A DNA stretch of 64,000 nt from contig WRLE01000015.1 of NCBI GenBank assembly GCA_009777775.1, positions 1 through 64,000 of the forward strand. Direction: 5' to 3'. Each line of letters starts with the position of its first letter. Positions within the stretch are counted from its first letter, which is position 1. A program made the translations under genes and the position numbers. This document shows positions 7,799 through 52,819 of the stretch, one piece after another. The notes under the pieces are model-generated. The model was given only the letters and a program-made list of their open reading frames with translations, did no database searches and had not been told where the DNA came from. This stretch comes from Oscillospiraceae bacterium (GTDB lineage: Bacteria; Bacillota; Clostridia; Oscillospirales; Oscillospiraceae).

Positions 7799-8902
7799 TT
7801 AGTCTCTACCTTGCTCTTTGTCGTAGAACTCGCGGCTGTAGCAGAACAGCTCGAAGGTGCCTGCCCAGGCGTGTTCGTCTGTGTAGCCAGAAGCGGAGGA
7901 ATACATACCGCCACCACCTGCGTAGAGGTCAACGGTTTCGCGGACTCTTTCGCAATATTCTTCAATGCTCAAATTTGGATAATCGGCACCAGTGCGCTCG
8001 ATGAATGAATTGAAGCCTATTTTGTCACCGTATTTTTCCTTTAACAGAGGAACATCGTTGGCGCGACGTTGAATTTGGATGAAATCTATATCCAAATCAA
8101 TCATGTATGGAACGAATCTTTCGATATTGCCGCAACTATGAAGCTCAAAAGCAGCACCCTTGGATTTGCAAGCAGCGACAATGCGTTTGGTGGGCTCGAA
8201 AATCAATTCTTCCATCATTTTATCGGAATAGAAGGTTTCTTTTTCCGTACCCCAGTCATCATGATATGTGATGAAGTCATATGGGACCAATTCCAGCATA
8301 CGCTCCACATATCCGACCATGTAATCGGAAAGCTTATTGAAGAAGGCAAGTGTTGCTTCTGGTTCGACAACTATTGCTTCGCAATAAAGGGTGTAGCCGC
8401 CCATCAGAGCAACGAGGCGTTCTGTGAGTCCCTGCCCGATATTAACGCGAAGAGGTCTGTCTGGGTTGTACCTGGTTTCCATGAAATGCTTGGCTGCTTC
8501 TTCCCAATTTTCACCATACTCAGGGAATTTCACCTTTGTTTCCCAAGTTGTGATGTCATCCATGAAAACAGAGCCGGGTTTGTGCATGGGTCCACCTGCT
8601 TCGGGGACGAAAACGGTTTCGACACCCCAGGCATCGGTGAATTCGCGGCGTTCTGTGCCACCCCACATACCACCCATTGCAGGAGGCGGGGTGAGTCCAG
8701 TGCCCATGGTGTATGAATCAAAGTCTGTTGCCGAGTTCGGTACCCACAAAGGATTATCCCTTTTTGCGCTGCGGTAGAAGTTTTCCTTTGGTGTTATGGG
8801 ATATTCCAAAATCGGTATTGTCATCGTATCCGATGAAAACGGACGGGTTCTAGTTTCCACCTCAATACCAGGCTGCTTATATGCCGGTCTTTCGTATTTC
8901 AT
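7799..8902 (-). CDS. UROD-superfamily protein, probable corrinoid-linked methyltransferase
   Basis: A 367-residue member of the uroporphyrinogen decarboxylase fold. The HSCGN motif (ELHSCGNIERFVPY) gives the His-x-Cys pair used to bind zinc in MtaA/MtbA-like methylcobamide methyltransferases, which argues against a true heme-pathway HemE. A conserved YHDDWGTEKETF segment is also present. Likely role: methyl transfer to or from a corrinoid protein, but no corrinoid protein gene lies in the window. It is more divergent than the three tandem paralogues at 37.4-40.4 kb. AAGGAGGAG sits 4 bases before the ATG. Confidence 0.8.
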   Translation of the reverse strand: MKYERPAYKQPGIEVETRTRPFSSDTMTIPILEYPITPKENFYRSAKRDNPLWVPNSATDFDSYTMGTGLTPPPAMGGMWGGTERREFTDAWGVETVFVPEAGGPMHKPGSVFMDDITTWETKVKFPEYGENWEEAAKHFMETRYNPDRPLRVNIGQGLTERLVALMGGYTLYCEAIVVEPEATLAFFNKLSDYMVGYVERMLELVPYDFITYHDDWGTEKETFYSDKMMEELIFEPTKRIVAACKSKGAAFELHSCGNIERFVPYMIDLDIDFIQIQRRANDVPLLKEKYGDKIGFNSFIERTGADYPNLSIEEYCERVRETVDLYAGGGGMYSSASGYTDEHAWAGTFELFCYSREFYDKEQGRD

Positions 8903-9067
8903 AACTCTCCTCCTTAAAATTGTCGTTTTTTACAAAACGCAAGTTGATTTTACAAATAAAAAGCACTATTGTCAACAATTTATGTTGTTATTATTATTTG
9001 TTATTGGTCTCGGAGATGCTAGAATCTTTTACATAGCTATTCATTGTATATATAGTACGCACTAACC

Positions 9068-37387: not shown

Positions 37388-38389
37388 TTAAGCATAATAT
37401 TTGAACTTATTCTTCTCGTACTCGTCGTTAATCCACTCGTTGCGTTCGGCTATGTTGGTGTTTTCCCTATTACCCATTACACCGCCACCGAAGGCGAAGC
37501 CACCGCCAGGTGCGAGGGTATCCATAACTTCCCTCACATATCCGCGAATGTCATCTTCCGTGGACTGCTCCCAGGAAACCATTCCATTGCTCTCGAATCC
37601 GCCGCAAATCGCCAGCTTATTGCCGTATTCAGCCTTGACCCTGGGTAAATCGTTAAATGTGGGTTGTGCTGGATTCCAAGCATTGAAGCCCATATTGACA
37701 ATATGCTTCACGAAGGGATAAAAAGCACCACAGTTGTGATGTTCCGCTGGCAGACCGGCTTCTTTGTAGATGGCTGTGTTTTGCCGCCACATTGGTTCAA
37801 AGATGTCCAGGAACACTTCTTCGGAGACAAATGGAGCTCTCTCATGGGCAATGTCGTCTCCCATGTGGTACATATCGGGTTTGTACCAATGCAAAAAGTT
37901 TTTGCCCAGCTCAAGATTTAGCTCAAGGATAAAGTTCAACAATGCCTTAACTTCGTCTGGCTCTTCCATGATTGCGATGAGTGCCTCGTTGAAACCCATG
38001 AAGTAGGTGAGCATCATAAAATATCCGTTGCCCACGCTGCCACCGCCGCTTTTCAAAAGCTCGGGGTCCCTGTCCTCTAAATCCTTTTTTGACATTGCTT
38101 CCCAATCTACTTCATCAAAGACCGCTGGTCTTTTTACGACATCACGCCACTTACGAATGTCTTTGAGCAGGAAATCGTTGGGTTTTGGAATAGGTCCACT
38201 GTTGGGTTCCATTACCATGGGAATGCCAAAGAAGAAATCGGTAAATTCCATAGCGTTGGGATCGGGTGGGCGAGAGAAGCCAGAAGCCCGAACGCCGCAT
38301 CTCATACCCAGAGTTCTGGGAACATACTCGGGTACGCCGCCATTAATCATGCGTAAAAAGTTTTCTTTTTCCGATAGATGCGTAGCCAT
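37388..38389 (-). CDS. UROD-family methyltransferase, tandem copy C
   Basis: 333 residues, last of three tandem paralogues on this strand. It has the His-x-Cys zinc motif AEHHNCGAFYPFVKHIVNMG and a conserved GDDIAHERAPFVSEEVFLDI segment, as in MtaA-like corrinoid methyltransferases rather than HemE. The three copies share most of their sequence, with differences concentrated in the N-terminal ~60 and C-terminal ~30 residues. AAAGGAGAG lies before the ATG and the gap to copy B is 21 bases, so it is one operon. Substrate unknown. Confidence 0.85.
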   Translation of the reverse strand: MATHLSEKENFLRMINGGVPEYVPRTLGMRCGVRASGFSRPPDPNAMEFTDFFFGIPMVMEPNSGPIPKPNDFLLKDIRKWRDVVKRPAVFDEVDWEAMSKKDLEDRDPELLKSGGGSVGNGYFMMLTYFMGFNEALIAIMEEPDEVKALLNFILELNLELGKNFLHWYKPDMYHMGDDIAHERAPFVSEEVFLDIFEPMWRQNTAIYKEAGLPAEHHNCGAFYPFVKHIVNMGFNAWNPAQPTFNDLPRVKAEYGNKLAICGGFESNGMVSWEQSTEDDIRGYVREVMDTLAPGGGFAFGGGVMGNRENTNIAERNEWINDEYEKNKFKYYA

Positions 38390-38410
38390 AAGCGTACTCT
38401 CCTTTAACTA

Positions 38411-39409
38411 TTAATAGTATTTATACTTATTTTTCTCATACTCGTCGTTAATCCAAGTGTTGCGCTCTGCAATTGATGGATTATCGCGAGGACCGAGGAC
38501 AAGACCGCCAAAGGCGAAACCGCCGCCTGGTGCCAATGTGTCCATGACTTCTCTAACATATCCGCGGATGTCTTCTTCCGTAGATTGATCCCAAGAAACC
38601 ATACCATTGCTTTCGAAACCGCCGCAGATTGCTAGTTTGTTGCCAAATTCTGCTTTGATGGCTGGAAGGTCATTATATGTTGGTTGTGCAGGATTCCAAG
38701 CGTTGAAGCCCATATTTACGATATGCTTTACGAAGGGATAAAAAGCACCGCAATTGTGGTGTTCTGCTGGAAGACCAGCTTCTTTGTAGAGAGCAACATT
38801 TTGTCTCCACATGGGTTCGAAAATGTCCATGAAGACTTCTTCTGAAACAAAGGGAGCTCTCTCGTGGGCAATATCGTCACCCATGGAATAGATGTCAGGT
38901 TTATACCACTTTAGATAATTTTTTCCCAGTTCTAGATTTAGATCCAATAAGAAATTGAGCAAAGCTTTGACTTCATCGGGCTCCTCTAGGATAGCACATA
39001 GAGCCTCATTGAAACCCATGAAATAAGTGAGCATCATGAAATAACCATTACCAATGCTACCGCCACCCACTCTGAGCATATCGGGGTCACGGTCTTCCAA
39101 GTCTTTCTTAGAAGTCATTTCCCAATCGACTTCATCGATTATTGCGGGTCTTTTAATGACATCGCGCCACTTGCGGATGTCAGTGAGCAAAAACTCATTG
39201 GGTTTAGGAATTGGACCGCTGTTAGGTTCCATCACCATGGGAATGCCGAAGAAAGCATCGGTGAATTCCAATGATTCCATATCTCTGGGGCGTGACAAGC
39301 CAGAAGCACGAACGCCGCATCTCATGGACATCATTGTGGGAACATACTCAGGTACTTGACCGTTTAACAAGCGAAGATAGTTTTCTTTTTCAGTAAGATG
39401 AGTTGCCAT
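38411..39409 (-). CDS. UROD-family methyltransferase, tandem copy B
   Basis: 332 residues, middle copy. Same zinc motif AEHHNCGAFYPF and GDDIAHERAPFVSEEVFMDI. It differs from copies A and C at scattered sites (for example FGGLVLGPRDNPSIAER near the C-terminus where C has FGGGVMGNRENTNIAER). Such divergence outside the zinc site suggests different substrates or corrinoid partners. AAGGAG lies before the ATG. Confidence 0.85.
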   Translation of the reverse strand: MATHLTEKENYLRLLNGQVPEYVPTMMSMRCGVRASGLSRPRDMESLEFTDAFFGIPMVMEPNSGPIPKPNEFLLTDIRKWRDVIKRPAIIDEVDWEMTSKKDLEDRDPDMLRVGGGSIGNGYFMMLTYFMGFNEALCAILEEPDEVKALLNFLLDLNLELGKNYLKWYKPDIYSMGDDIAHERAPFVSEEVFMDIFEPMWRQNVALYKEAGLPAEHHNCGAFYPFVKHIVNMGFNAWNPAQPTYNDLPAIKAEFGNKLAICGGFESNGMVSWDQSTEEDIRGYVREVMDTLAPGGGFAFGGLVLGPRDNPSIAERNTWINDEYEKNKYKYY

Positions 39410-39427
39410 AATGTATTCTCCTTGTTT

Positions 39428-40423
39428 TTAATAATACTTGTACATATTCTTTTCGTACTCGTCGTTTATCCATGCATTGCGCTCTGCAATATTGGTATTC
39501 TCACGGTTACCCATAACATTTCCGCTGAATGCATAACCGCCGCCAGGAGCTAGGGTGTCCATGACTTCTCTGGTATATGCGCGGATTTCTTCTTCTGTCG
39601 TATGCTCCCAAGAAACCATGCCATTGCTCTCGAAGCCTCCGCAAATTGACAGCTTATTACCATATTCCTTCTTAATGGCGGGTAAATCGTTGAATGTGGG
39701 TTGTGCAGGATTCCAAGCATTGAAGCCCATATTCACAATATGCTTTACGAAGGGATAAAAAGCACCGCAATTGTGATGTTCCGCAGGTAGACCCGCTTCT
39801 TTGTAAATCGCAGTATTTTGCCGCCACATTGGCTCGAAGATGTCCATGAATACTTCCTCGGAAACGAAGGGAGCTCTCTCGTGGGCAATGTCGTCACCCA
39901 TGGAATAGATGTCAGGCTTGTACCACTGCAAAAAATTCCTGCCAAGCTCAAGATTGAGTTCAAGCAGGAAATTGAGTAAAGCTTTTACTTCGTCGGGCTC
40001 TTCCATAATTGCGATAAGAGCCTCGTTAAAGCCCATGAAATAGGTAAGCATCATGAAATAACCATTTCCGATGCTACCTCCGCCGAATTTCAAAAGGTCA
40101 GGATCACGTTCGTCCAAATCCTTTTTCGACATCATTTCCCAGTTGACTTCATCAAAGATTGCAGGTCTTTTCACCACATCACGCCATTGACGGATGTCTT
40201 TGAGTAAAAAGTCTCCAGGCTTTGGAATGGCTCCGCTGTTCGGCTCAACCACCATGGGAATTCCAAAAAATGCATCTGTGAATTCCATGGAACTGAGGTC
40301 TCTGGGTTGACCAAAGCCCGTTGCTCGAACACTGCAACGCATCCACAAAGACCTGGGGACATACTCAGGTACTTCGCCATTTATCATGCGCAGATAATTT
40401 GCTTTTTCTGATAATGTTGCCAT
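39428..40423 (-). CDS. UROD-family methyltransferase, tandem copy A (first in operon)
   Basis: 331 residues, promoter-proximal copy. Same zinc motif AEHHNCGAFYPF. The N-terminus (GEVPEYVPRSLWMRCSVRAT) is the most diverged of the three. AAAGGAGGG lies 6 bases before the ATG. The operon A-B-C runs to the bidirectional terminator at 37330-37370. No corrinoid protein or activator (RamA-like) gene is in the window, so the partner must be encoded elsewhere. Confidence 0.85.
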   Translation of the reverse strand: MATLSEKANYLRMINGEVPEYVPRSLWMRCSVRATGFGQPRDLSSMEFTDAFFGIPMVVEPNSGAIPKPGDFLLKDIRQWRDVVKRPAIFDEVNWEMMSKKDLDERDPDLLKFGGGSIGNGYFMMLTYFMGFNEALIAIMEEPDEVKALLNFLLELNLELGRNFLQWYKPDIYSMGDDIAHERAPFVSEEVFMDIFEPMWRQNTAIYKEAGLPAEHHNCGAFYPFVKHIVNMGFNAWNPAQPTFNDLPAIKKEYGNKLSICGGFESNGMVSWEHTTEEEIRAYTREVMDTLAPGGGYAFSGNVMGNRENTNIAERNAWINDEYEKNMYKYY

Positions 40424-40493: not shown

Positions 40494-40577
40494 AAATAAG
40501 GTTAATATGCAAGATATTTTATACATAAGCTATAATAGATATTTCGATTAAATGCAAAGATATTACAATAGCTAAAC

Positions 40578-40609
40578 AAACACCTGCAAACCGAAGCTCG
40601 CAGGTGTTT
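40578..40609 (-). terminator. Terminator of the nucleotidyltransferase module
   Basis: AAACACCTGC at 40578-40587 pairs with GCAGGTGTTT at 40600-40609. It resembles, but is not identical to, the terminator of the SLH gene at 41881-41914, in the same place relative to the 122-bp repeat. Confidence 0.75.
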
Positions 40610-40611
40610 GT

Positions 40612-40733
40612 TTGTCATGGAATCGAGAACTTGCAATGCTTTAAAATGTGCTAGTCGAGCATTGACAGCCATTTGTAGAAAATGGAAGCTACTTCGGCTC
40701 TAGTGGCTGGGCTGCGTGGGTTGAAAGTGCTGC
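40612..40733. repeat. 122-bp perfect direct repeat, distal copy
   Basis: Identical base for base to 41916-42037. It contains the last 83 coding bases (28 codons incl. stop, less one base) of the SLH gene plus 39 bases of its 3' flank. Here it is detached from any SLH gene and joined at 40733/40734 to the end of the small helical gene. Confidence 0.95.
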
Positions 40734-41264
40734 AGGGTAAGATTCAAGATATGCCAATGTCTTACGCACATTTTCTAAACTTATCTTTTGACAATCAGCA
40801 TGTTTTAAAAAAGCGGTGAGATTACCATGATTTAGCTTCATGTCTTTATATAAACGGTAGGTTGTAACATTTTTATCCTGCTGTAATTTGATAATACGAT
40901 TATGCATAAGTAGCTTAGTGTGATTTTCACTTTTTGTTTTATCTCTAATAGCCAGATAGCTTTGATAAATACGGTTATATCGTTCGGGTAACAAGGAAGT
41001 TCCTGAAATTAATTCCTGCATCAGTACCTCACTCTTGTTGTTTGTCAGATGATTCGTATATTCCTGCCGCAATTTATCATTTTTAGTAGCCTTTAGTAAA
41101 ACGTCTTCCTTATTCCAAAATAGAGCATAAAGAAATAATGGTTCGCATAATCTCGGATTGTTCGTAGACGCTTCTTTTGCAAGCTGATACAATCCGCAAG
41201 TATCCGTGTAGGAGAGATTGCGAATATATTTTCGTAAAAACCCTTTAAAAGTCAATTTGCTCAT
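40689..41264 (-). CDS. Putative antitoxin/partner of nucleotidyltransferase, with replaced C-terminus
   Basis: 191 residues, mostly helical. The segment TTYRLYKDMKLNHGNLTAFL followed by KISLENVRKTLAYLE looks like a C-terminal helix-turn-helix of the kind seen in partners of DUF6036-type nucleotidyltransferases (from memory of such pairs). The last ~15 residues (AALSTHAAQPLEPK) are encoded by the 122-bp SLH-gene repeat read in another frame, so the natural stop region was lost at the junction near 40734. It overlaps the upstream gene by 4 bases (ATGA), typical of a toxin-antitoxin operon. Role inferred only. Confidence 0.7.
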   Translation of the reverse strand: MSKLTFKGFLRKYIRNLSYTDTCGLYQLAKEASTNNPRLCEPLFLYALFWNKEDVLLKATKNDKLRQEYTNHLTNNKSEVLMQELISGTSLLPERYNRIYQSYLAIRDKTKSENHTKLLMHNRIIKLQQDKNVTTYRLYKDMKLNHGNLTAFLKHADCQKISLENVRKTLAYLESYPAALSTHAAQPLEPK

Positions 41265-41788
41265 AACTTAAATTCCCTCACATAGTCTTTGTAGGCATCC
41301 AAAAATATGTTATACGAGTTATCGTTTAATCTACTTGACCAAGCTTCACTTTCGTCTGTGGCTAAAAATTCTAGCTTGTCCCAATCAAGATTCATCAATA
41401 CATTACTATCAGTAATATCGACTATATCAACCGGTCGCGAAGCGTAAAGTTTTGCTATAACAGCATCTTCGAGGGAAACTACATATACGTCAATTTTACG
41501 TCCTTGAAAGACTAGTTTAAGTCGATCTTCATAATTATATGGAAAGCAATTAATATATGCTTGTGCTCTGGTATTTATATCGTGTTTTTCTAATAATGGG
41601 TACAATTCCTTTGATACGCCAATGGAATCAATGTCATGTGTTGCAATAGTTCTCAATTTATGTAAAATCAACGCACTCCCACCAACGATAATTAAATAAT
41701 ATCGTTTGTCGGTATCGAAAGATAGATACACGTCCTCGTCCAGTCGATTTAAACGTAATAAGACATCATCAAAAGACATAGCTGTCAT
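41261..41788 (-). CDS. DUF6036-like nucleotidyltransferase-fold protein (TA-type module)
   Basis: About 175 residues. YYLIIVGGSALILHKLRTIA then THDIDSI gives the GGS and Asp-x-Asp-type pattern of minimal nucleotidyltransferases of the DUF6036/AbiEii-like group. DVYVVSLEDAVIAKLYA is another family-like stretch. Members are thought to modify tRNA or nucleotides as toxins, with a partner encoded beside them. The start at 41788 has GAGG 6 bases upstream; the frame opens earlier at a TTG (41800). It is the first gene of a two-gene unit with a perfect consensus promoter. Confidence 0.75.
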   Translation of the reverse strand: MTAMSFDDVLLRLNRLDEDVYLSFDTDKRYYLIIVGGSALILHKLRTIATHDIDSIGVSKELYPLLEKHDINTRAQAYINCFPYNYEDRLKLVFQGRKIDVYVVSLEDAVIAKLYASRPVDIVDITDSNVLMNLDWDKLEFLATDESEAWSSRLNDNSYNIFLDAYKDYVREFKL

Positions 41789-41816
41789 AAAGAACCTCAA
41801 TAATAATGGTTTATTA

Positions 41817-41864
41817 ATACTATTAGTATACAGTTATTATAGCAATAATACTGTTTTGTGTCAA
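41817..41864 (-). promoter_or_regulatory. Consensus promoter and operator-like palindrome of the nucleotidyltransferase module
   Basis: On the minus strand TTGACA (41864-41859), exactly 17 bases, TATAAT (41841-41836): both hexamers perfect. A palindrome ATACTA-T-TAGTAT (41817-41829) lies at the expected transcription start, a good site for autorepression by the module. Confidence 0.75.
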
Positions 41865-41880
41865 TCTTAAAATACATAAC

Positions 41881-41914
41881 AAAGGCACCTGCAAGCTTTG
41901 TTGCAGGTGCCTTT
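41881..41914 (-). terminator. Terminator of the SLH gene
   Basis: AAAGGCACCTGC at 41881-41892 pairs with GCAGGTGCCTTT at 41903-41914; T-rich on the minus-strand 3' side. Confidence 0.8.
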
Positions 41915-41915
41915 G

Positions 41916-42037
41916 TTGTCATGGAATCGAGAACTTGCAATGCTTTAAAATGTGCTAGTCGAGCATTGACAGCCATTTGTAGAAAATGGAAGCTACTTCG
42001 GCTCTAGTGGCTGGGCTGCGTGGGTTGAAAGTGCTGC
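41916..42037. repeat. 122-bp perfect direct repeat, proximal copy (native SLH gene end)
   Basis: Contains the 3' end of the SLH gene in its proper frame plus 39 bases downstream. Identical to 40612-40733; offset 1304 bases. Confidence 0.95.
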
Positions 42038-44723
42038 TTGGGAGGTCGTTGAATAAACCTTGTTCATTCAACGAATTAACAGCACTGAGTGCCCAGTCGC
42101 TAACATTGTCGATGTCGTCAAACACGATTCCGCTACTATTTGGTAGAGCTGAGTTTTCTGCTTGTTGCGTCCTATAAATAAGGGCTGCAAGCTGCTCCTT
42201 CGTTACAGGGTCATTGGGACCGAATCTACCGTTGCCATATCCAAGAACGATGCCGTTGTCAGCACCCCATTTGATAGCGTCTGTATACCAGAGGTCTTCA
42301 GCCACATCGTTGAAAGGATTGGTCAGCCCTTCTACGCTGGGTTCACCAGCAAGACGGTAAAGTATGGTCACAATCATACCCCTTGTCAATGTGCCATTGG
42401 GGTCGAATCTGTTTGCAGGAACACCTATCATCAAGTCTTTGCTGTACATGAACATAACTGCATCATAGAACCAATCATCTTCACTTACATCGGTAAATGT
42501 GAAGGGTGTCTCTTCTCCTGGTGTTTGAGTATCGTCTATAGGAGTTGTGGTACCACCGGAGCCACCACCAACATAGCCGCCACCTCCAGAAGCTCTGCGT
42601 ACAGTCAAAGTAAATGTCACTGTGTCTATACCTTCGCTATTGCTTGCTGTGAGTACAACTGCGTATGTGCCAATGGGAAGCCCTGTTGATATATCGAGCT
42701 GCTGGGTTACATTGTTCCATACTAGATTGCCACCGTGGTCTGTGTCTTGGGAAACAGTTGGAATTGGGTTACCTGAAGGTGTGAATGTTGCTGATGAAGT
42801 TGCTGCATAGCCTACAGTAAGCGTCAGGTCGTTTGGTCCTGTAATACTAGGCATTGTGGCTATAGGCGGTAGGGGAGCAGGAGGATTAATGATGAGAGTG
42901 AAAGTAAATACTGCGTTTGGTAATTCACCATTTGTAGCTGTGAGCGTGACAGGGTAGTCACCAACTAATAAGCCTTCAGCTATTTCAAAACGCATCGTGG
43001 AATCGTTCCAAGTTATCATTCCTCCGTAATCAGTATCAACTGATATAGTAGGAGCTGGTTCGCCTGTAACGTGAAACTCCATACTGGTTTCTGTGGCATA
43101 TCCTACTATGAGTGTTAATTCATTAGGTCCTGTGATAGTAGGAGCTTCTAGTATAGCATCAGTTTTTACATTCAATGCAGGGCTTACTGCAGATGCTTCG
43201 GTGTCATCAGTCTCTTTTATCCTCTGATAGAAAGTATATTCTGTATTTGGTGTTAATCCGCTAAATACATTATTATCTTCCCACTTGATGCCACCATTAA
43301 TGCTATATTGATAACCAGCAGTATCAACCAGTGTGACAGTTTCGGTTGTTTTTGAATTAAGGATGGGAGCAGCTGGAGCTGCTGGAGCAGCTTTTTTTAG
43401 TACAGGATCTGTGGCTGCGCTAATGGTACCATATTTATCGCTAGATTCAACTTCAAGTATAATGGATTTACCTAAATCACTCAGCTGTACCACATAATTG
43501 GGACCTTTACCAAGTTCTGTTGATCCAGATTTCCATGTAAAGGGGAGTACAGCAGAGCTGTTTGTATCGGTAAAATTACCGACTAATGTATCTCCTATCC
43601 TTGGTGATGTGTTGCTAATCGTTGCAGTTCCTGTTAAATCCTCTGTTTCATTTGGCACTTGGAAAGTAACAGGACTCCAGTCGCTTGTGCGGTTGTCTCC
43701 ATCTTTAAGTATGTATTGGAAAGAATCCTCACCTTTGAAGTCTGTTCGCGGTAGATATTCAAAATTGCCATCTTGGTTAATCCAGACTCTACCGCCATTT
43801 ACAGTGGTTACAGCATGTGCTCCATCTGGGTCGTATGGGATGTCACTCAATTTAAATTCATCTGAACCATCTTGAGTTCTTACTTTCCAAACAATATTTT
43901 GTATAGGAACTGGATTTCCCAGAGGTTCTATCCAATTTATTGATTGTTGATCATTATCTAATACATTTCCATGGAATCGGTAAGCAGCATTGTTATAAAG
44001 TAATGTATAATGATCATCAACAGCTATGGGCGTATCATAAAAATCACTAACAATATCAACTTCAACTTCGTTTTTTGGATAATTTACATCGTCAACGGCT
44101 CCCCATAAGTATGTTTCATCATTGTCAGCATCGAAAATGGTAATGCCTGCATCTTCAGGAACTGCAGATGGATAGAATATGTTAATAAATCCACTTGAGT
44201 CGCTACCATCAACAAAACTGAAAGTATTGTTTCCGAGATCATCGATTGTTTTACCATCTTGAATCCTGAAATAAAATGCAAACATATCGACATAGCTACC
44301 ATTGGATACCATATGACCACCAAAGCTCGCTATTGTGCATTCAAAACCCATGCGGGTAGTTAGGTATTTCCATCGTGTCATCATAACTACGAATCCAGTA
44401 TCTGGTACACAAAGCTCCTCCATGGGATCCTTTAAAACATCATCGTTGACAACGGAAATGTCGGCATAAGGAGCTGTGCTAGCAATGGGTTTGATAATTA
44501 CGTCATCATATGTGAATGCCACCATCAGACTGCTGATATTATTTGGAGACATTGCGCGAAATATTAGTCTATACACATTTGTTGCTACAGCTTCACATTC
44601 GACTTTGATTCCAGCGTCACCAGCTGCGGCAATGGCTAGAGTTTCGTACATGGGTATCATAGCTAGAATCATAACTAATACCATCAATAACGATAGTACT
44701 CTATTAGCCTTTGATTTATTCAA
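41955..44723 (-). CDS. SLH-anchored surface protein with cohesin-like N-terminal domain
   Basis: 922 residues. Signal peptide (~1-33). Residues ~35-200 (IKVECEAVATNVYRLIFRA, SLMVAFTYDD, VDMFAFYFRIQDG) resemble a cohesin domain in strand pattern and the FxxxxxFRI-type strand. Then a cadherin-like VDDHYTLLYNNAAYRFHGNV (Big_17-type) domain, several Ig-like domains (~360-700), a Gly-rich linker and three SLH repeats (DWFYDAVMFMYSKDLMIG, LWYTDAIKWGADNGIVLGYG, SDWALSAVNSLNEQGLF). It would anchor a dockerin-bearing partner to the wall if the cohesin call is right; the dockerin gene lies just upstream. The start is TTG at 44723 with AGAGG upstream. Confidence 0.85.
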   Translation of the reverse strand: MNKSKANRVLSLLMVLVMILAMIPMYETLAIAAAGDAGIKVECEAVATNVYRLIFRAMSPNNISSLMVAFTYDDVIIKPIASTAPYADISVVNDDVLKDPMEELCVPDTGFVVMMTRWKYLTTRMGFECTIASFGGHMVSNGSYVDMFAFYFRIQDGKTIDDLGNNTFSFVDGSDSSGFINIFYPSAVPEDAGITIFDADNDETYLWGAVDDVNYPKNEVEVDIVSDFYDTPIAVDDHYTLLYNNAAYRFHGNVLDNDQQSINWIEPLGNPVPIQNIVWKVRTQDGSDEFKLSDIPYDPDGAHAVTTVNGGRVWINQDGNFEYLPRTDFKGEDSFQYILKDGDNRTSDWSPVTFQVPNETEDLTGTATISNTSPRIGDTLVGNFTDTNSSAVLPFTWKSGSTELGKGPNYVVQLSDLGKSIILEVESSDKYGTISAATDPVLKKAAPAAPAAPILNSKTTETVTLVDTAGYQYSINGGIKWEDNNVFSGLTPNTEYTFYQRIKETDDTEASAVSPALNVKTDAILEAPTITGPNELTLIVGYATETSMEFHVTGEPAPTISVDTDYGGMITWNDSTMRFEIAEGLLVGDYPVTLTATNGELPNAVFTFTLIINPPAPLPPIATMPSITGPNDLTLTVGYAATSSATFTPSGNPIPTVSQDTDHGGNLVWNNVTQQLDISTGLPIGTYAVVLTASNSEGIDTVTFTLTVRRASGGGGYVGGGSGGTTTPIDDTQTPGEETPFTFTDVSEDDWFYDAVMFMYSKDLMIGVPANRFDPNGTLTRGMIVTILYRLAGEPSVEGLTNPFNDVAEDLWYTDAIKWGADNGIVLGYGNGRFGPNDPVTKEQLAALIYRTQQAENSALPNSSGIVFDDIDNVSDWALSAVNSLNEQGLFNDLPSSTFNPRSPATRAEVASIFYKWLSMLD

Positions 44724-45584: not shown

Positions 45585-48500
45585 TTATGTGTATGATTCT
45601 GTGTATAGCAAGTATCTGTGGAGCATTGTAGCTACTTGTGCTCTGGTTGCTGTTCCTTTTGGATTGATTATGACTCTACCGTCGCTAGTTTCTCCTGTGC
45701 CTGTGATGATACCGAGTTTGCAAAGGATCTGAATGGCATCTTTTGCATAACCTGAGATTGCCGTTTCGTCTGCGAAATCTAAATACACATCTGGCACCAG
45801 TGGTACGATGCCTTTGTAGCTCATATAGCGGATCAGTATAATTGCAAGGTCTTGCCTTGTGACGCTGTCCATGGGTCCGAACTTTCCGCTACCGTAACCT
45901 TCCACTATACTCTTGTCTTGAGCCCATTTCACAGCGCAAGTGTAGTATTGACCTTCTTGGACATCATTAAAGGGGTTCATTGAATCTTGATAATCAGGCT
46001 CCTCTTCCATGCGCCAGAGTATGGTCACCAGCATTGCACGGCTCAGGCTAGCCGATGGGCTGAACATATTGGAGCTTGTTCCATTCATCAGTCCTTTTTG
46101 ATATATACTTTCCACATATTCATAGAACCAATCGCTCAGGTTTATGTCGTCGAATACTGGCCAGGGTTTTTCTGCAAGGGGTCCTTCTGTATCGTCGATT
46201 GGTGTGGTGATGTCTTCATCATCGACAACAACGGTCACAGGCGGTCTTACATATCCACCTCCGTAGTTACCACCGCCACTGCTACCACCATTATCATTGC
46301 CGTTGTCGCCACCATTGTCGTCGCCGTCATCGCCACCATCACCATCACCACCACCATCGTCATCGTCAACTGTCACAGTCACGATGCAATATGCTTTGAA
46401 GCCGCCTTCCACAGTGGTTACGGTAACAACGCATGAGCCTTCGCCCACTGCCGTGACCAAACCTGTGGCATCCACCGTGGCAATGCTGCCGCCGCAGCCT
46501 GTGCTCCAGGTCACTTCCTTGTTTGTGGCTGCTCCCGGCAATACTGTTGCCGTAAGTTGCAAGCTCTCTCCCAGTTCCAGTTCTATTTCCGCTTCACTCA
46601 ATAGCACTCCTGTCACAGGGATATCACCTATCACTGTAGGAGTCTCGGAGACATATACATTGACATATGCCTCGAAGCCTCCCTGGGAGCTGGTTGCCGT
46701 CACATAGCATATACCGGAATCGACGGCAGTGATAAGCCCGCTTACACCAACTGTGGCAACAGCGGTATCTGACGAAGTCCAGCTGAGGGTTTGATTGGCT
46801 GCATTGGCAGGCACAATCTGAGCTGATGCCTGTACCGTATCGCCCGGGTCGAGGTAGTAGCGCTCGGTATCTATTTCTATTCCTTTCACAGCAACCGGCG
46901 GGGGTGTTGTCACCGAAAGGGCAAACCGCTCGCCTTGGTCGTCAAAACCAAGGGGAATGTCTGCATAGCTGCTGATGGACGGACTGAAGCTTACGTAATA
47001 TGTTGTTCCAGCCATAAACTCTTCTCCAGCCTCCAGCGTGAAGATAAATGCCTTTGCAACTTGCTGACCTTTGTACACCACTGGCTGTGTAGCCGCGAAG
47101 CTGCCTGACAGGAACTCATTGCCGCCAAGGGCAGTTCCGTCTTCTGCCAACGCAGGAGAATATACATTAATGTTATTTCCATTGATGTCAGAGGCTTTAA
47201 CATATCTTTCAAAGACTATTTCTATGCTATCTCCATTGTCTGTGAAGTATGCCCCAATTGGTATCGCCGGTCCTTGATATTCCAAGGCTTGGTGAACATC
47301 AAGGCGAATGGGTGGCACGTACATTTCGTTGCTGTACTCGGTTTTATAACCTTCTTTTTCGTACATCACCATCCAATTGCCCATGGGAACATCCCACTCG
47401 TACCAACCGTCGCTTCCTGTTATATAGGGGTTGATTTGCCTGTACCATTCCATGTCGAAGAAGCTCCAGTCGCCAGAACCTGCTGAGCTTGCACCTTGGT
47501 CTGAATCGGCTTCGAATAGCAAGGTGGCTGTGACTCCATCGATGGGGTTGTCCAGGCTTACTTCATAGACGATGCCGCTGGGGTCGTGGATCCATCTTGA
47601 TCTGTAGGGTCCGGGCCAGGTTTTGTATCCGGAACAATACCTGCTAAACCAGCGAGTGTCAGGAAAGTCTCTATCTCTATTCAACTTGGTTCCACATTCG
47701 TCTAGACTTATTGCAACTATCTCGTCTATTATATCGTTTATGCCGTCAATGACGTTTTCGTTGCCCATCCAATCGGTGACTATTCCCGCTCCTGTAATAA
47801 CCGGGTCCATGGGTGAATCCGTTTGTCCGCCCATGGTGACAATGGAAGCGGATTGCTGCATGGATGAATTAGTAGTATACACTTTCCGAATATCACGAAA
47901 TATGGAGTCTACTCGCGATTCTGGAGTATTCTCACACAGATCCTCCGTTGCCTCAACTAGGTTTTCAGTGATGTCCTTACCCCATCCGTTCGTCCATTCG
48001 TATGATTCAGGTTCTTCGAAAACCAGACCTGTGACTTCGGTATCCACTTCATATCCATGGGGATCCACCCCGCTTTCAGCTGGTGGGATGAGGTATATGA
48101 CCGAGCTGGACCTATATGTGTATGTATCGTCTTCTATGGTTAGGCTATCTTGGTAGTTATAGACCTGGATCTCATCATGAACTCGGTTGAACTCGCTGAG
48201 GGTAGCAGGCAGCGTTATCGAAGCCAGCTCTGTAATGGTTATATTCACCGAAGATTCGCCTACAATATCAGCCACATCGTAGCTGAATAAAACCGTGCTG
48301 CCAGGAACCAGCGTATATTCAGCCTTTTCATCATCAGGAGAATATGTATTCGGATCAGAGTCGAAGTCATAGGCAAGGTAGCCATCCGCTACGCTGGCGC
48401 CTTCATCCTTCCAGCTGATGCTGAATTCGCTCAGTTCGCCGGGAAGCTGGTTGCGAAGCTGTGCATTCGTAGTTTCGTTGAAGAGGTCGTAATGGGCATA

Positions 48501-51500
48501 ACTTGGGGTGAATATCACATTGATGATTGCTTCGGAGAAGTCGCTAGCTCCTATGATCTTGAAGGGGTCTAAAATCACAGCGTCCCAAGCATCAGTTATA
48601 GCATTATAATTTGCCTGGGCATATGCAATGGCACCGTTGGGGCTTGTTATTTGGATATACACATCCTGCACATGGCTGTTGTCGGTAAACACCGCTGAAA
48701 TTTTCAGTTGGGTTTCTTTGCCGGTTAGCGTATAGGGGAAGGAAACGGGACCTTGACCTGCATCAAGCACTGTATGTACCGTTCCGTACATTCCATATAC
48801 TATCAGTTTGCTCAATCCTGGGCGGTTGGGATCATAAATCATAATCTGTCTTTCGCTGATCAGGGTACTACCGCCGTGCTCGGTTGCTGCCACCAATTCA
48901 TGGCGGTACCTGACCCCGTCTTCCCCTGGCAATATGACATTCAAGTTCCAATATCCCGCAGGGCTTGCCATTACCTCTCCAATTGGCACTCCCCTGTCGT
49001 ATATTTTCACCAAAGAACCTGCGGGAGCAAGTCCATTGATATGGATATCGCGCCTATATGTGTATGCATCGGCTTCCAGACTAATGGTTTCTATATAGAT
49101 TTCAGCTGTTCCCAGAGAATTTGAAAGGGCACCCGACCTGTAGACAGCTGTGGAAAAGACATGGTTTACTGTTATATCGGAATTCACCTTCACCCGAAAT
49201 GCTACGAAACCGCTGTTTGCATCTGCTGCTGTGACGGGAACTTGGAAGCGTCCAGAAGCATCGATGATGGGATTCGCCAAGCCGACGCTGTTTTTCGTCA
49301 AGCTCCCTTGGATGAATGTAGTTCCCGAGGGAATCTGTAAAGTAATACTGTCTGCATCCGATGGCGCATTCATCCGCTCGTAACTTGCCATCAGCGTGAC
49401 TATTCCACCTGGTGCGGCGTTTACTGGTGCTACAACATATGAACCAGAAGCAACATCGGAACCAACCGGATTCATTATTACATCACCATAATCGATTATG
49501 TCACCATCAGATGCCGTGATTGTACGGCTTGCAGTAAATTTATTGCCGTTTGGGTTCTGATATGTAATTGTATCAGTGGAAAACAGAAGCTCGTATGTCT
49601 CCGCTTCTTCAAAATAGACCCGATATACGCCCCCTGCCAGGTGATAACTCTGGTATTTCACTATGTGGTTGGTGTTGGTATCTCGAGCCATAATAGAAAC
49701 ATAAGCTCGATTGTTGGAATTATAATACATCACAGCATTGCCGTCGGGACCCACAGGCTTTATGTCCACTGCGGCTGTTTGCATAACATAGAAATCATCA
49801 GAAATTGTATAATTGTTGTCCACAGTAAGAACACGCTGATAATCCGGCATATATAACGAAGCTACTACTGTATTCCATGTGCCTCGGACGAGTATTTCAT
49901 CTCCAGGTACCACCACTAGATCCACGGTTGATTGTGAAAAAATTGTGGCAGTTTGGTTCGTGCTCAGATTTGTCAAACGAATTACAGGACGCAGAGCCAA
50001 TAATGATGCACCTTGTCCATATACTGGAACAGTGGAATAGTCTGCATCGCCGAAAGATTTAGCATAAAGTCGCAAGTCGGTTTCCAGCCGCTGCCCCAAT
50101 CCAACAGCAATGTCCTTTTGGTTGATTCCTGCTGTTGTAACGAATGGTGTTGTCTCGGGAAGGTAAGCCGTTGAACGCTCTAGAATCTTAGTGACGCTGG
50201 CTGTTGTTTCGCAAGCTGATAAAATCGGCAAGCTGTAGTATCCGTTTTCATCAGTAATTGTATTCCAATACTCCTTTGAGCTGATTCCACGGCTCTGTAG
50301 AGATTGCGTCACTGTGACCGTGGCACCGGAAATAGGCTGCCCGTTTTCCAAGGTGACGATTCCCTCCAAAGTTCCATCGAAATGCAAGATGTAATCAGGC
50401 AAATGGATAGTCAGGCTGTTTTCGCCAGGATCTGGGGTAATATCCTTTGTAATAAAGCTGGGGTAAAAGAAATAGTTCAGCTCGCCTCCGGAGTCATATG
50501 CTGTTCTGATCCCCGCCCTAAGGGACACTCTATACTGTTGGAATGCTGTCAGCCCTGATAAAGCAGGATTATTGTTTCTTATATTGCCAGTTATACTTCC
50601 ATTGGCTGTATTTTGAACTTGAATTATATAAGACTCAAATAGGCTCTCTTCAATGCTGCTGCCGAAACTGAGGGCGACTTCCAAGTGAGCTTTCACTTCT
50701 GGGGTGATGCTTACCGGTGTCAACTGCCCGGCTGTAACTGATATTCCATTTACATGGGCGGTCACGTTATTGTATTGATCTCGAAAAGTGAGAGTTATTC
50801 CTGTTCCTTCAATAGTACCTTCAGCTGATCCACCAGCTGCTCCAACAGGTATGCCTACGATGATGTACTCGTCCTGGGCAGCGTTGAAATCGACTGCGAT
50901 GCTGTTGCCAATGCCATTGTATGCTGCGGTGAGGGTACCTATGATGCTCAAAGCTGGAAAGTCTGTGAAATAATCGTTGATGATTGTCACTCTCAGCCCA
51001 CCGCGGATTTCAGGAAGCCTGTATGCGCTCAAAGGAACTTCCGCAGCCGTTTTACCCGCTATACCTTCTAGGGTAAAAAGAACTCCGCTGATTTTAGATA
51101 TGCCTTCTGCCATGGTGAACGTGCCTGAGTAGAGACCTGGCGTGGCGGTACTTTCTGTTAAATTCACGATTGCGGTCTGTGCTGTCAAATTTTGTATAGC
51201 GTCATCGTAGGTCACTGTCGCCTTCGCTGTTCCGCCTGCTTCTCCATATAGTGTAATGTTCATCATGTCGTTTGGGCTATAATAAGGCTTCCCATCGTCC
51301 GTGGCGTTTGACAGCTGCATATTGTATATTTCGGCAACATCGCTCGCAGCTTCTGCTTTTACCCATAATTCGCTGTTTTTGCTGGGGTCACCAGCATCGA
51401 AGACATGCTCATAAATAAAGTAGCCTGTGCCTGAGTTTCTATCGTACTCTCCTTCGTTTCTCCCATCGACCCAGGGCCACAAATAATCATTTTCGCCAAA

Positions 51501-52703
51501 TATCACATAGGGCGCATCCGGAGAGCATGTAATAGTTCCGTCTATAGTCACTTTAGTAGCGAAACCAAGAATAATCCCGTTTTCCCCTGAAGAGCTGGCA
51601 TTGCCATGAATATCAATGGTGGCTCCGGGATGTGCTCTTATAGCACTGGCTTCAAATGAAGTGACATCACCCATTATTATAAATTCTCCATTACCGACCA
51701 CAGCATCATTTATAGACCAAACATCGCCGTGAACAGTCACTTTTGCAAATTCGTTTCCGTAACTAATGGCATTTACACCATAACCATCCTCATTGACGTT
51801 GGTAACATCGCCAAATATCTCTACAACAGCGTCTGATTCAATGTTTAAGCCTTCATTGTAGCGGCCATTTTGATTTAGATCATTTTTGACCGTGAATTCT
51901 CCGCCATTAATATTGAACGTGCCATTTGCATCGCCTTCGATGTATAACTCGGATCTGTATGTATTGCAGGTTCCGTTGAAATCCCCACCGATGGATACTT
52001 TGCTGTTACTAATGGTAATTCTGTATGGCTCTCCAAATTGCTCAAAATCGAGTTCCTTCACCGGCGCGCTTACACTTCCGATTATTTCGAAAACAGAATC
52101 ATCGGATTGTATGACCATGCCGCCGTTATAATTCGCTTCCTCGCTGACGGAAGCAACTATTATATTGTCAAGGGTAAAAGACGATTCCTCCGCCATAAGA
52201 ACATTAATGTAAGTATAATAGTAATAGGTTTCGTCATCATATGGGTCGTAATAAGAGTCTATTGGTTCAGGGGTGATGACAATGTTCAGCTTCCCTGTGA
52301 TGCCTCTGTCAACGGTTAGATTGACATTGACTAAAGACATGGCGTAGGCGCCGATATCATCCATTTCCAATTGGTCGCCGAGAATGTTCAGCACATAGCC
52401 GTTCAAATCAAGCACGATTTCCATTGGGTTTGAACCTGTGCCTTCCAAATTGAAGTTGCCCTCATAGTCAAGGTCGTCTAGCAGCAAAAGAGTGTCACCA
52501 TCAATCAAGTCTACCAGTGCGTCTGATAGGTCACCATATGAACCTGACATGGTGCCGCCTCGCCAAATCTCCCAGATGTCGCCAGGGGCTGCATATGCTC
52601 TCAGAGTTGATATTGGCAAAAATCCGAAAATCATTGTCAATGCCAAAAAGAGCGCAAGGGTTTGCTTTGTTTTTACGGTTGTTTTAGTGTTAATTTTCAT
52701 CAT
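45585..52703 (-). CDS. Giant SLH-anchored surface protein, ~2372 residues
   Basis: Signal peptide (TLALFLALTMIFGFLPIST to AYA). The N-terminal ~430 residues are rich in short Gly/Asn/Ile strands (VFEIIGSVSAP, VTVHGDVWSINDAVVG), as in a right-handed beta-helix. The middle holds several Ig-like and carboxypeptidase-regulatory domains (LEGIVTLENGQPISGATVTV). Two Big_2 domains (VKGIEIDTERYYLDPGDTV; VLLSEAEIELELGESLQL) precede an Asp/Gly-rich linker and three SLH repeats (DWFYEYVESIYQKGLMNG, YYTCAVKWAQDKSIVEGYG, SGYAKDAIQILCKLGIITG). Probably adhesive. The start is ATG at 52703 with GGAGG 5 bases upstream; the frame opens at a TTG (52715) inside that site. No catalytic motif seen. Confidence 0.88.
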   Translation of the reverse strand: MMKINTKTTVKTKQTLALFLALTMIFGFLPISTLRAYAAPGDIWEIWRGGTMSGSYGDLSDALVDLIDGDTLLLLDDLDYEGNFNLEGTGSNPMEIVLDLNGYVLNILGDQLEMDDIGAYAMSLVNVNLTVDRGITGKLNIVITPEPIDSYYDPYDDETYYYYTYINVLMAEESSFTLDNIIVASVSEEANYNGGMVIQSDDSVFEIIGSVSAPVKELDFEQFGEPYRITISNSKVSIGGDFNGTCNTYRSELYIEGDANGTFNINGGEFTVKNDLNQNGRYNEGLNIESDAVVEIFGDVTNVNEDGYGVNAISYGNEFAKVTVHGDVWSINDAVVGNGEFIIMGDVTSFEASAIRAHPGATIDIHGNASSSGENGIILGFATKVTIDGTITCSPDAPYVIFGENDYLWPWVDGRNEGEYDRNSGTGYFIYEHVFDAGDPSKNSELWVKAEAASDVAEIYNMQLSNATDDGKPYYSPNDMMNITLYGEAGGTAKATVTYDDAIQNLTAQTAIVNLTESTATPGLYSGTFTMAEGISKISGVLFTLEGIAGKTAAEVPLSAYRLPEIRGGLRVTIINDYFTDFPALSIIGTLTAAYNGIGNSIAVDFNAAQDEYIIVGIPVGAAGGSAEGTIEGTGITLTFRDQYNNVTAHVNGISVTAGQLTPVSITPEVKAHLEVALSFGSSIEESLFESYIIQVQNTANGSITGNIRNNNPALSGLTAFQQYRVSLRAGIRTAYDSGGELNYFFYPSFITKDITPDPGENSLTIHLPDYILHFDGTLEGIVTLENGQPISGATVTVTQSLQSRGISSKEYWNTITDENGYYSLPILSACETTASVTKILERSTAYLPETTPFVTTAGINQKDIAVGLGQRLETDLRLYAKSFGDADYSTVPVYGQGASLLALRPVIRLTNLSTNQTATIFSQSTVDLVVVPGDEILVRGTWNTVVASLYMPDYQRVLTVDNNYTISDDFYVMQTAAVDIKPVGPDGNAVMYYNSNNRAYVSIMARDTNTNHIVKYQSYHLAGGVYRVYFEEAETYELLFSTDTITYQNPNGNKFTASRTITASDGDIIDYGDVIMNPVGSDVASGSYVVAPVNAAPGGIVTLMASYERMNAPSDADSITLQIPSGTTFIQGSLTKNSVGLANPIIDASGRFQVPVTAADANSGFVAFRVKVNSDITVNHVFSTAVYRSGALSNSLGTAEIYIETISLEADAYTYRRDIHINGLAPAGSLVKIYDRGVPIGEVMASPAGYWNLNVILPGEDGVRYRHELVAATEHGGSTLISERQIMIYDPNRPGLSKLIVYGMYGTVHTVLDAGQGPVSFPYTLTGKETQLKISAVFTDNSHVQDVYIQITSPNGAIAYAQANYNAITDAWDAVILDPFKIIGASDFSEAIINVIFTPSYAHYDLFNETTNAQLRNQLPGELSEFSISWKDEGASVADGYLAYDFDSDPNTYSPDDEKAEYTLVPGSTVLFSYDVADIVGESSVNITITELASITLPATLSEFNRVHDEIQVYNYQDSLTIEDDTYTYRSSSVIYLIPPAESGVDPHGYEVDTEVTGLVFEEPESYEWTNGWGKDITENLVEATEDLCENTPESRVDSIFRDIRKVYTTNSSMQQSASIVTMGGQTDSPMDPVITGAGIVTDWMGNENVIDGINDIIDEIVAISLDECGTKLNRDRDFPDTRWFSRYCSGYKTWPGPYRSRWIHDPSGIVYEVSLDNPIDGVTATLLFEADSDQGASSAGSGDWSFFDMEWYRQINPYITGSDGWYEWDVPMGNWMVMYEKEGYKTEYSNEMYVPPIRLDVHQALEYQGPAIPIGAYFTDNGDSIEIVFERYVKASDINGNNINVYSPALAEDGTALGGNEFLSGSFAATQPVVYKGQQVAKAFIFTLEAGEEFMAGTTYYVSFSPSISSYADIPLGFDDQGERFALSVTTPPPVAVKGIEIDTERYYLDPGDTVQASAQIVPANAANQTLSWTSSDTAVATVGVSGLITAVDSGICYVTATSSQGGFEAYVNVYVSETPTVIGDIPVTGVLLSEAEIELELGESLQLTATVLPGAATNKEVTWSTGCGGSIATVDATGLVTAVGEGSCVVTVTTVEGGFKAYCIVTVTVDDDDGGGDGDGGDDGDDNGGDNGNDNGGSSGGGNYGGGYVRPPVTVVVDDEDITTPIDDTEGPLAEKPWPVFDDINLSDWFYEYVESIYQKGLMNGTSSNMFSPSASLSRAMLVTILWRMEEEPDYQDSMNPFNDVQEGQYYTCAVKWAQDKSIVEGYGSGKFGPMDSVTRQDLAIILIRYMSYKGIVPLVPDVYLDFADETAISGYAKDAIQILCKLGIITGTGETSDGRVIINPKGTATRAQVATMLHRYLLYTESYT

Positions 52704-52819
52704 AGGTGCCTCCAATAAAAATGTTGTCTATTACAATTTTACTAATGTGTTATATGTTTTGGTATATGAGTTTTATTTATATATTATATGTACTCCAATA
52801 AACCACCATTTCTGGCAGC

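Follow-up and report, generated by a model that had tools for sequence, protein, structure and literature searches.

A toxin-antitoxin-like gene pair between two identical copies of an S-layer gene end in an Oscillospiraceae genome

In the genome of an Oscillospiraceae bacterium, a two-gene unit resembling a toxin-antitoxin (TA) system is flanked by two identical copies of the 3' end of a gene for an SLH-domain surface protein, which is the kind of scar left by foreign genes that were added without a dedicated mobile element. The reading that we prefer, with a probability of roughly 55%, is that a single event placed this module downstream of the SLH gene, with homology at one end only. The window, meaning the whole stretch of 64,000 nucleotides that was analysed (contig WRLE01000015.1, positions 1 to 64,000, assembly GCA_009777775.1), contains on its minus strand, in this order, the SLH gene, the native copy of the repeat, a proximal hairpin (T_P), a promoter-like site, gene 1, gene 2, the detached copy of the repeat, a distal hairpin (T_D) and three UroD-like genes. 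The features are:

41955..44723, minus strand: SLH-domain surface protein gene, 922 amino acids, source of the duplicated 3' end (open reading frame; PF00395, E 3.8e-34, three stretches)
41916..42037, minus strand: native 122-bp copy, 83 bp of SLH coding end and 39 bp of flank (exact repeat comparison)
41875..41923, minus strand: proximal terminator-like hairpin T_P, preceding the promoter of the module and following the SLH end, with outer bases that overlap the repeat (fold z -6.8; terminator scan, 41878-41917)
41836..41864, minus strand: promoter-like site TTGACA-17-TATAAT, 12/12, with TG before the -10 element, directly after T_P (promoter scan)
41807..41832, minus strand: operator-like region upstream of gene 1, containing AATAGTAT at 41817-41824 (motif shared among module loci)
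40734..41877, minus strand: presumed inserted unit, 1144 bp, spanning the sequence between T_P and the joint at the gene 2 end (G+C and repeat comparison)
41261..41800, minus strand: gene 1, DUF6036 nucleotidyltransferase, toxin-like, probable start ATG 41788 (PF19502, E 2.1e-42; conserved GG.A..L and T.DID motifs)
40689..41264, minus strand: gene 2, 191-amino-acid partner with C-terminal XRE-like helices, overlapping gene 1 by 4 bp, last 14 residues derived from the repeat (open reading frame, HTH_26 below cut-off, structure model, Foldseek)
40612..40733, minus strand: detached 122-bp copy (exact repeat comparison and assembly search)
40574..40613, minus strand: distal hairpin T_D, probably the SLH gene's own terminator (fold z -5.9; likeness to T_P; unflagged by the consensus scan)

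Positions 40612-40733 and 41916-42037 are identical at 122 of 122 bp in a pairwise comparison, as the original prediction had claimed, and they are the only two copies (E<=0.001) in the assembly to which the window belongs (35 contigs, 2.80 Mb); no copy of the 122-bp end beside another module was found in the whole of that assembly. The assignment of the copies was also correct, in that the SLH gene is read on the minus strand from 44723 to 41955, so that the copy at 41916-42037 is the native one and the copy at 40612-40733 is detached. The detached copy is unchanged even though it no longer encodes SLH protein. The 122-bp sequence is absent from 18 other genomes of the genus, which gave only matches of about 15-29 bases (best E 0.0024). 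A reading of the repeat as an integron attC site was rejected, since the repeat is found only twice in the assembly and the bracket that it forms showed no integrase beside it.

The identity of the copies raises the question of an assembly artefact, in which reads from an empty SLH locus would have been mis-joined with a separate molecule carrying the module via the shared 122 bp. The assembly is a draft of 35 contigs, and exact repeats are where assemblies err. However, the two copies are assembled with four distinct flanks, 122 bp fits within a typical short read, and other brackets in the genome have non-identical copies, which such an artefact would not produce; we regard it as the least probable of the explanations considered.

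Another possibility is that the detached copy is the remnant of a tandem SLH paralogue, the module having replaced all but the last 83 coding bases of a downstream SLH gene that had its own terminator. A second SLH gene is present in the neighbourhood (45585-52715, identified with Pfam), and paralogues share up to 74% of their DNA in the SLH region. The paralogues in the genome match the SLH gene only upstream of the 122 bp, though, and the 122 bp are shared by nothing else in the genome. Furthermore, on the gene-2 side the similarity to the SLH gene stops with the repeat, as judged by alignment of the edges against shuffled sequences, and comparable brackets adjoin genes that are unlike SLH genes. 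The replacement of a neighbouring SLH gene, one of the origins originally proposed, was not borne out at this edge and is an improbable rival. On the other side of the locus, three tandem UroD-like genes, named by eye, are located at 37388-40423 of the window, two of which are 77-78% identical in DNA to the third at 39428-40423.

The two hairpins fold far better than shuffled sequences, with z scores of -6.8 for T_P and -5.9 for T_D. The consensus terminator scan flagged T_P but not T_D (one found vs 1.1 expected in shuffles), and T_D is called a terminator because of its folding and its likeness to T_P. The stem CACCTGC...GCAGGTG is present nowhere else in the genome than in T_P and T_D (0.00 expected in shuffles of the window). 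The alignment of the two hairpins scored 16 vs a shuffle mean of 4.7 (sd 1.9), with none of 2000 shuffles as good over 45 nt and one of 2000 over 75 nt, and the pair scored 17 vs a maximum of 12.5 for 59 other terminator-like hairpins in an 871-kb sample of the same genome. In contrast to this terminator edge, where 0 of 2000 shuffles were as good, the gene-2 edge is abrupt and shows no homology (1918 of 2000). By these comparisons T_P and T_D are homologous but diverged. Strong hairpins that are similar and non-identical thus follow both copies of the repeat, as predicted, while the consensus scan supports the proximal terminator only.

The divergence of the hairpins is not matched by the repeat. 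T_P and T_D differ by 7 mismatches and 5 internal gaps, or about 12 events, in 49 columns, including paired losses of GG and CC that preserve the stem, whereas the 122 bp contain no changes. If both had aged alike from one event and mutated at equal rates, the probability of 0/122 vs 12/49 would be about 6e-9, and under the same assumption at most about 1.2 changes (95% bound) would be expected in the hairpin. This unequal divergence contradicts a single event that duplicated the gene end together with its terminator, although hairpins may have a higher mutation rate than other DNA, in which case the argument for two ages would be weaker. The duplicated target has one age if it is the 122 bp alone, and two ages if the hairpin is counted in. 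Recent insertion with a long target duplication, as first suggested for this locus, remains the best fit to the anatomy and the literature, but the single-event contradiction means that it needs either a form with one-sided homology or later gene conversion.

The latter is the main rival to our reading. An older duplication of the gene end and terminator at the time of insertion would have been followed by gene conversion that made the copies identical again over 122 bp but stopped short of the hairpins. This is consistent with hairpins that are homologous, diverged and altered by paired changes, and older events exist, since the other brackets of the genome show 89-97% identity. However, the identity is undecayed right up to the gene-2 joint, where conversion tracts should fade, and two events are required. 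We consider it a possible but rather unlikely history.

In the preferred one-event reading, a self-contained operon with its own promoter and operator-like site would have arrived with a foreign terminator, T_P, homologous to the native terminator of the SLH gene, T_D, but diverged from it. Strand exchange within the short terminator region would have linked the SLH end with T_P and the module behind it, and an illegitimate joint would have connected the far end of the module, at the natural end of gene 2, with the SLH gene 83 bp short of the latter's end. The 122-bp host stretch between the illegitimate joint and the exchange would then be present twice and be identical, and T_P and T_D would differ because one of them is foreign. 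A single crossover of a circle with illegitimately closed ends could have given the same product. The proposed capture by recombination comes close to this mechanism, but the exchange would have taken place between terminators and not between SLH paralogues, which do not share the 122 bp. Several observations given here and below go against the one-sided reading: the clear homology at the anchor covers only about 45 bp and is diverged, which is short for RecA-type exchange, not every other bracket has a one-sided edge or an insert of low G+C, few module loci are bracketed, and most repeat pairs of the genome sample have other readings. The genome contains a ComEC-like uptake gene, as does that of E. 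coli.

Insertion with long target duplication (Nobusato et al. 2000, Helicobacter pylori) is known for restriction-modification genes, as described in passages of PMC3874152 and PMC1643837. The locus resembles it in having a module without mobility genes, a direct repeat of host DNA on the order of 100 bp (here 122 bp, 100% identical) and cargo of an addiction type in appearance. It differs in that the repeat adjoins diverged homology on one side, in that the host is a distant Firmicute, and in its cargo, which by Pfam is a DUF6036 gene with an XRE-like partner and not a restriction-modification system; the association with the latter is frequent but not obligatory. The locus thus behaves like insertion with long target duplication and is mostly of a known kind, with a new clue to the mechanism. 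Homology at one edge and none at the other, as found here, is expected of homology-facilitated illegitimate recombination, and the combination of one homologous and one illegitimate end is shared with single-crossover products. In E. coli, a section of PMC3240628 gives the diagnostic duplication product in 56 of 60 clones, with duplications of 109-950 bp in the 14 that were sequenced, and attributes them to a circle in which part of the homologous end was missing and which underwent a single crossover. In contrast to the E. coli case, as far as that section describes it, the event here is deduced from the scar, and the homologous end would be a short, diverged terminator. A one-sided model has also been proposed for effector-immunity modules in Vibrio (part of PMC5361080). 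Behind the long target duplications around restriction-modification genes stands the long-standing question of how small addiction and defence modules can spread when they lack mobility genes. A locus whose repeat and terminators differ in age would show at which end homology was used, and the mechanism could be tested from the scars in many genomes, provided that strains with empty sites bear out the pattern.

The proposed illegitimate joint can be placed with the help of gene 2. This gene ends inside the detached copy, in a different frame from the SLH gene (phase 0 vs 2), as predicted, and exactly 14 codons lie in the repeat, not the approximately 15 residues first counted. The comparison covered 12 relatives with a full gene 2, three of which are near-identical Faecalibacterium copies. 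The gene ends 2-8 residues after the position of Leu173 in the window protein in 11 of them, while the window protein runs 18 residues beyond it; the small-gene relatives thus end before the SLH-derived tail in 11 of 12 cases, in line with a check suggested earlier. In the remaining relative (L120/L052), gene 2 runs 16 residues beyond the Leu173 position in unrelated sequence. The AlphaFold model of the window protein has a mean pLDDT of 87, a last helix at 163-174 and values of about 48 in its final blocks, and the 14-residue tail is predicted to be disordered. Native-looking residues reach about 'ESYP', where relatives end in 'KSYPSVR'. The ends of the relatives, the last helix and the 'ESYP' residues together indicate that the joint coincides, or nearly so, with the natural gene 2 terminus. 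Proteins can be edited by insertions of this kind: gene 2 has acquired a C-terminal tail that is derived from the host and read in another frame.

The presumed inserted unit has a G+C content of 33% vs 42% for the contig. Its promoter-like site at 41836-41864 is the sole 12/12 site in the region, where 9 sites of any quality were found vs 7.2 expected, and a strong promoter-like site is present upstream in nine of the ten module loci compared, this one included. The motif AATA(C/G)TAT is found in 10 of 12 upstream regions of the module, again with this locus among them (dinucleotide shuffles predict 0.23); three of these ten are near-identical Faecalibacterium loci. The C-terminal helices of gene 2 resemble XRE domains weakly (best Foldseek E 1.1; HTH_26 below the Pfam cut-off), and its N-terminal part is helical and without a good PDB match. 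The XRE-like helices and the conserved upstream site suggest that gene 2 may regulate its own operon via AATA(C/G)TAT. The structure model of gene 1 is poor (mean pLDDT 55.7), no solved structure of a gene 1 relative was found, and PADLOC gave no match for either protein.

The layout is of TA type: an overlapping two-gene operon encodes a toxin-type enzyme and a putative DNA-binding partner downstream of a conserved site. Judged from these features, the two genes are likely a TA pair, in which gene 1 is probably the toxin and gene 2 probably the antitoxin and autorepressor. AbiE- and MNT-type pairs, which consist of a nucleotidyltransferase and a DNA-binding-type partner in a tight operon, are the closest comparison. 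The module shares this organization, together with a conserved site after the promoter, but differs from these pairs in that the nucleotidyltransferase gene comes first and in that the partner is XRE-like C-terminally and helical N-terminally. DUF6036 was not named in the literature searched.

To place the locus among similar arrangements, direct repeats of 50-600 bp, at least 88% identical and 0.4-6 kb apart, were collected from the 871-kb sample (31%) of the genome. This gave 20 pairs, seven of which we classified as brackets. The other 13 were set aside, namely three tRNA pairs, four tandem paralogues and three pairs of a 50-bp family on contig C2, one upstream-region pair on C4 and two short pairs on C6. 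The seven brackets have repeats of 69-248 bp that are 89-100% identical, and three enclose TA-like genes (gene names from Pfam for eight proteins in the brackets and a tRNA island, the others by eye):

Window locus: 122 bp, 100%; DUF6036 and XRE-like pair inside
C2 111806/114648: 126 bp, 96.8%; 3' gene end; two genes inside; hairpin after the detached copy (by eye)
C4 115941/118346: 248 bp, 89.1%; 3' gene end; PIN, MazE-like and 457-amino-acid genes inside
C4 11459/13054: 90 bp, 96.7%; 5' gene end; GNAT gene and another inside
C12 63529/67212: 87 bp, 90.8%; hairpin at a gene end; AbiEii, DUF6088 and Fic genes inside
C15 67529/70847: 69 bp, 91.3%; non-coding stretch; ABC-transporter-like operon inside
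C2 32155/33026: 85 bp, 95.3%; stretch from inside an ATPase-like gene, present again after its stop

The edges of these brackets vary, some being abrupt on both sides and the VapBC-like one fading on both sides with diverged similarity. Of six bracketed inserts whose G+C was measured, two do not have a low value (0.430 and 0.431 vs 0.416 and 0.413). The sister genomes contained two repeat pairs in 397 kb from four genomes, both in the same genome (G009) and amounting to one or two brackets; one has the same anatomy, with the 3' end of a response-regulator-like gene duplicated around two ATPase-like genes. Several such scars thus appear to be carried by the bacterium. It is conceivable, and no more than a tentative generalization, that terminators and gene ends are landing pads in these gut bacteria, where small operons, often TA-like, would be added repeatedly without a recombinase, via short terminator homology and an illegitimate joint, leaving direct repeats of gene ends. 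If true, genes would be gained by a general, cassette-like route, and this route would underlie insertion with long target duplication.

The brackets also bear on site-specific insertion by an integrase, integron or transposon that used the gene end as its attachment site. Gene-end repeats resemble att sites, repeats of tRNA-Arg in this genome bracket nucleotidyltransferase and AbiE-type genes with the anatomy of a classical island, and a serine-recombinase-like gene, named by eye, adjoins the module in Faecalibacterium relatives. Against this, there is no recombinase among the open reading frames in or beside the bracket (Pfam on five proteins, the rest by eye) and no shared attachment site, and six of the seven bracket repeats are present in two copies in the 871-kb sample and the seventh in three. 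We give this explanation very little weight.

The tRNA-Arg island mentioned above, at 88947-94846 of contig C4 (L150), has two full repeats (ARAGORN) and one partial repeat, which enclose nucleotidyltransferase/HEPN-like and AbiEi-like/AbiEii pairs (HEPN and AbiEi by eye); it was rejected as a bracket as its repeat is the tRNA-Arg. At 0.7-13.6 kb of contig C2, four adjacent genes have a common C-terminal end, RVILPSERFSGRTYG, pieces of which are repeated between them.

The distribution of the module is patchy. It is present in one of 18 other genus members, in 16 of 394 genomes in the order at E<=0.001 (six strong, own included) and in 15 of 391 in the class (two strong, own included), and only in the own genome among 398 in the phylum at 1e-8. 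Viral contigs contained no relative of gene 1 and plasmids none of gene 2, while phages gave one partial match to gene 1. Neither an empty site nor a donor was found, and the best homologues of the UroD-like neighbour, in genomes G014 and G012, are located beside different genes, with no comparable locus. The direction of the event and its donor are for this reason only inferred, and the locus is not filed as a proven case of insertion with long target duplication.

Only two of the 14 module loci are bracketed, those in the window and in the Coriobacteriia contig L066, and a module-specific insertion signal was rejected on these grounds. The 14 include loci that are cut short or incomplete (L068, ending 73 bp after gene 2; L044, with 1.35 kb upstream; L065, with gene 1 undetected; and the fragment L070) and L118, whose CRISPR-like array was not counted as a bracket, while weak matches to the HTH alone (L053-L062, L103-L115) were left out. 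In L066, the repeat that brackets the homologous module is intergenic and 189 bp long (84%), and this bracket may be a coincidence, as the repeat belongs to a family with 49 matches in that genome. The copies of the family in this genome (G427) are intergenic, dispersed and about 190 bp long and contain several hairpins (by eye); the 49 matches fall in 1.5 Mb, with five places on one contig. Beside the same module, at 4122-5220 of L066, a RelBE-like pair is bracketed by a 203-bp duplication (94%) of an LCP-like gene end (both named by eye), and the detached LCP-like copy starts at the RelE-like stop codon. The serine-recombinase-like gene of the Faecalibacterium loci (L063, L064 and L069) starts at most about 20 bp after the module. 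In L118 (genome G215), the CRISPR-like array at 8554-8959 has repeats of about 37 bp and begins approximately 65 bp beyond the gene 2 that belongs to the related module.
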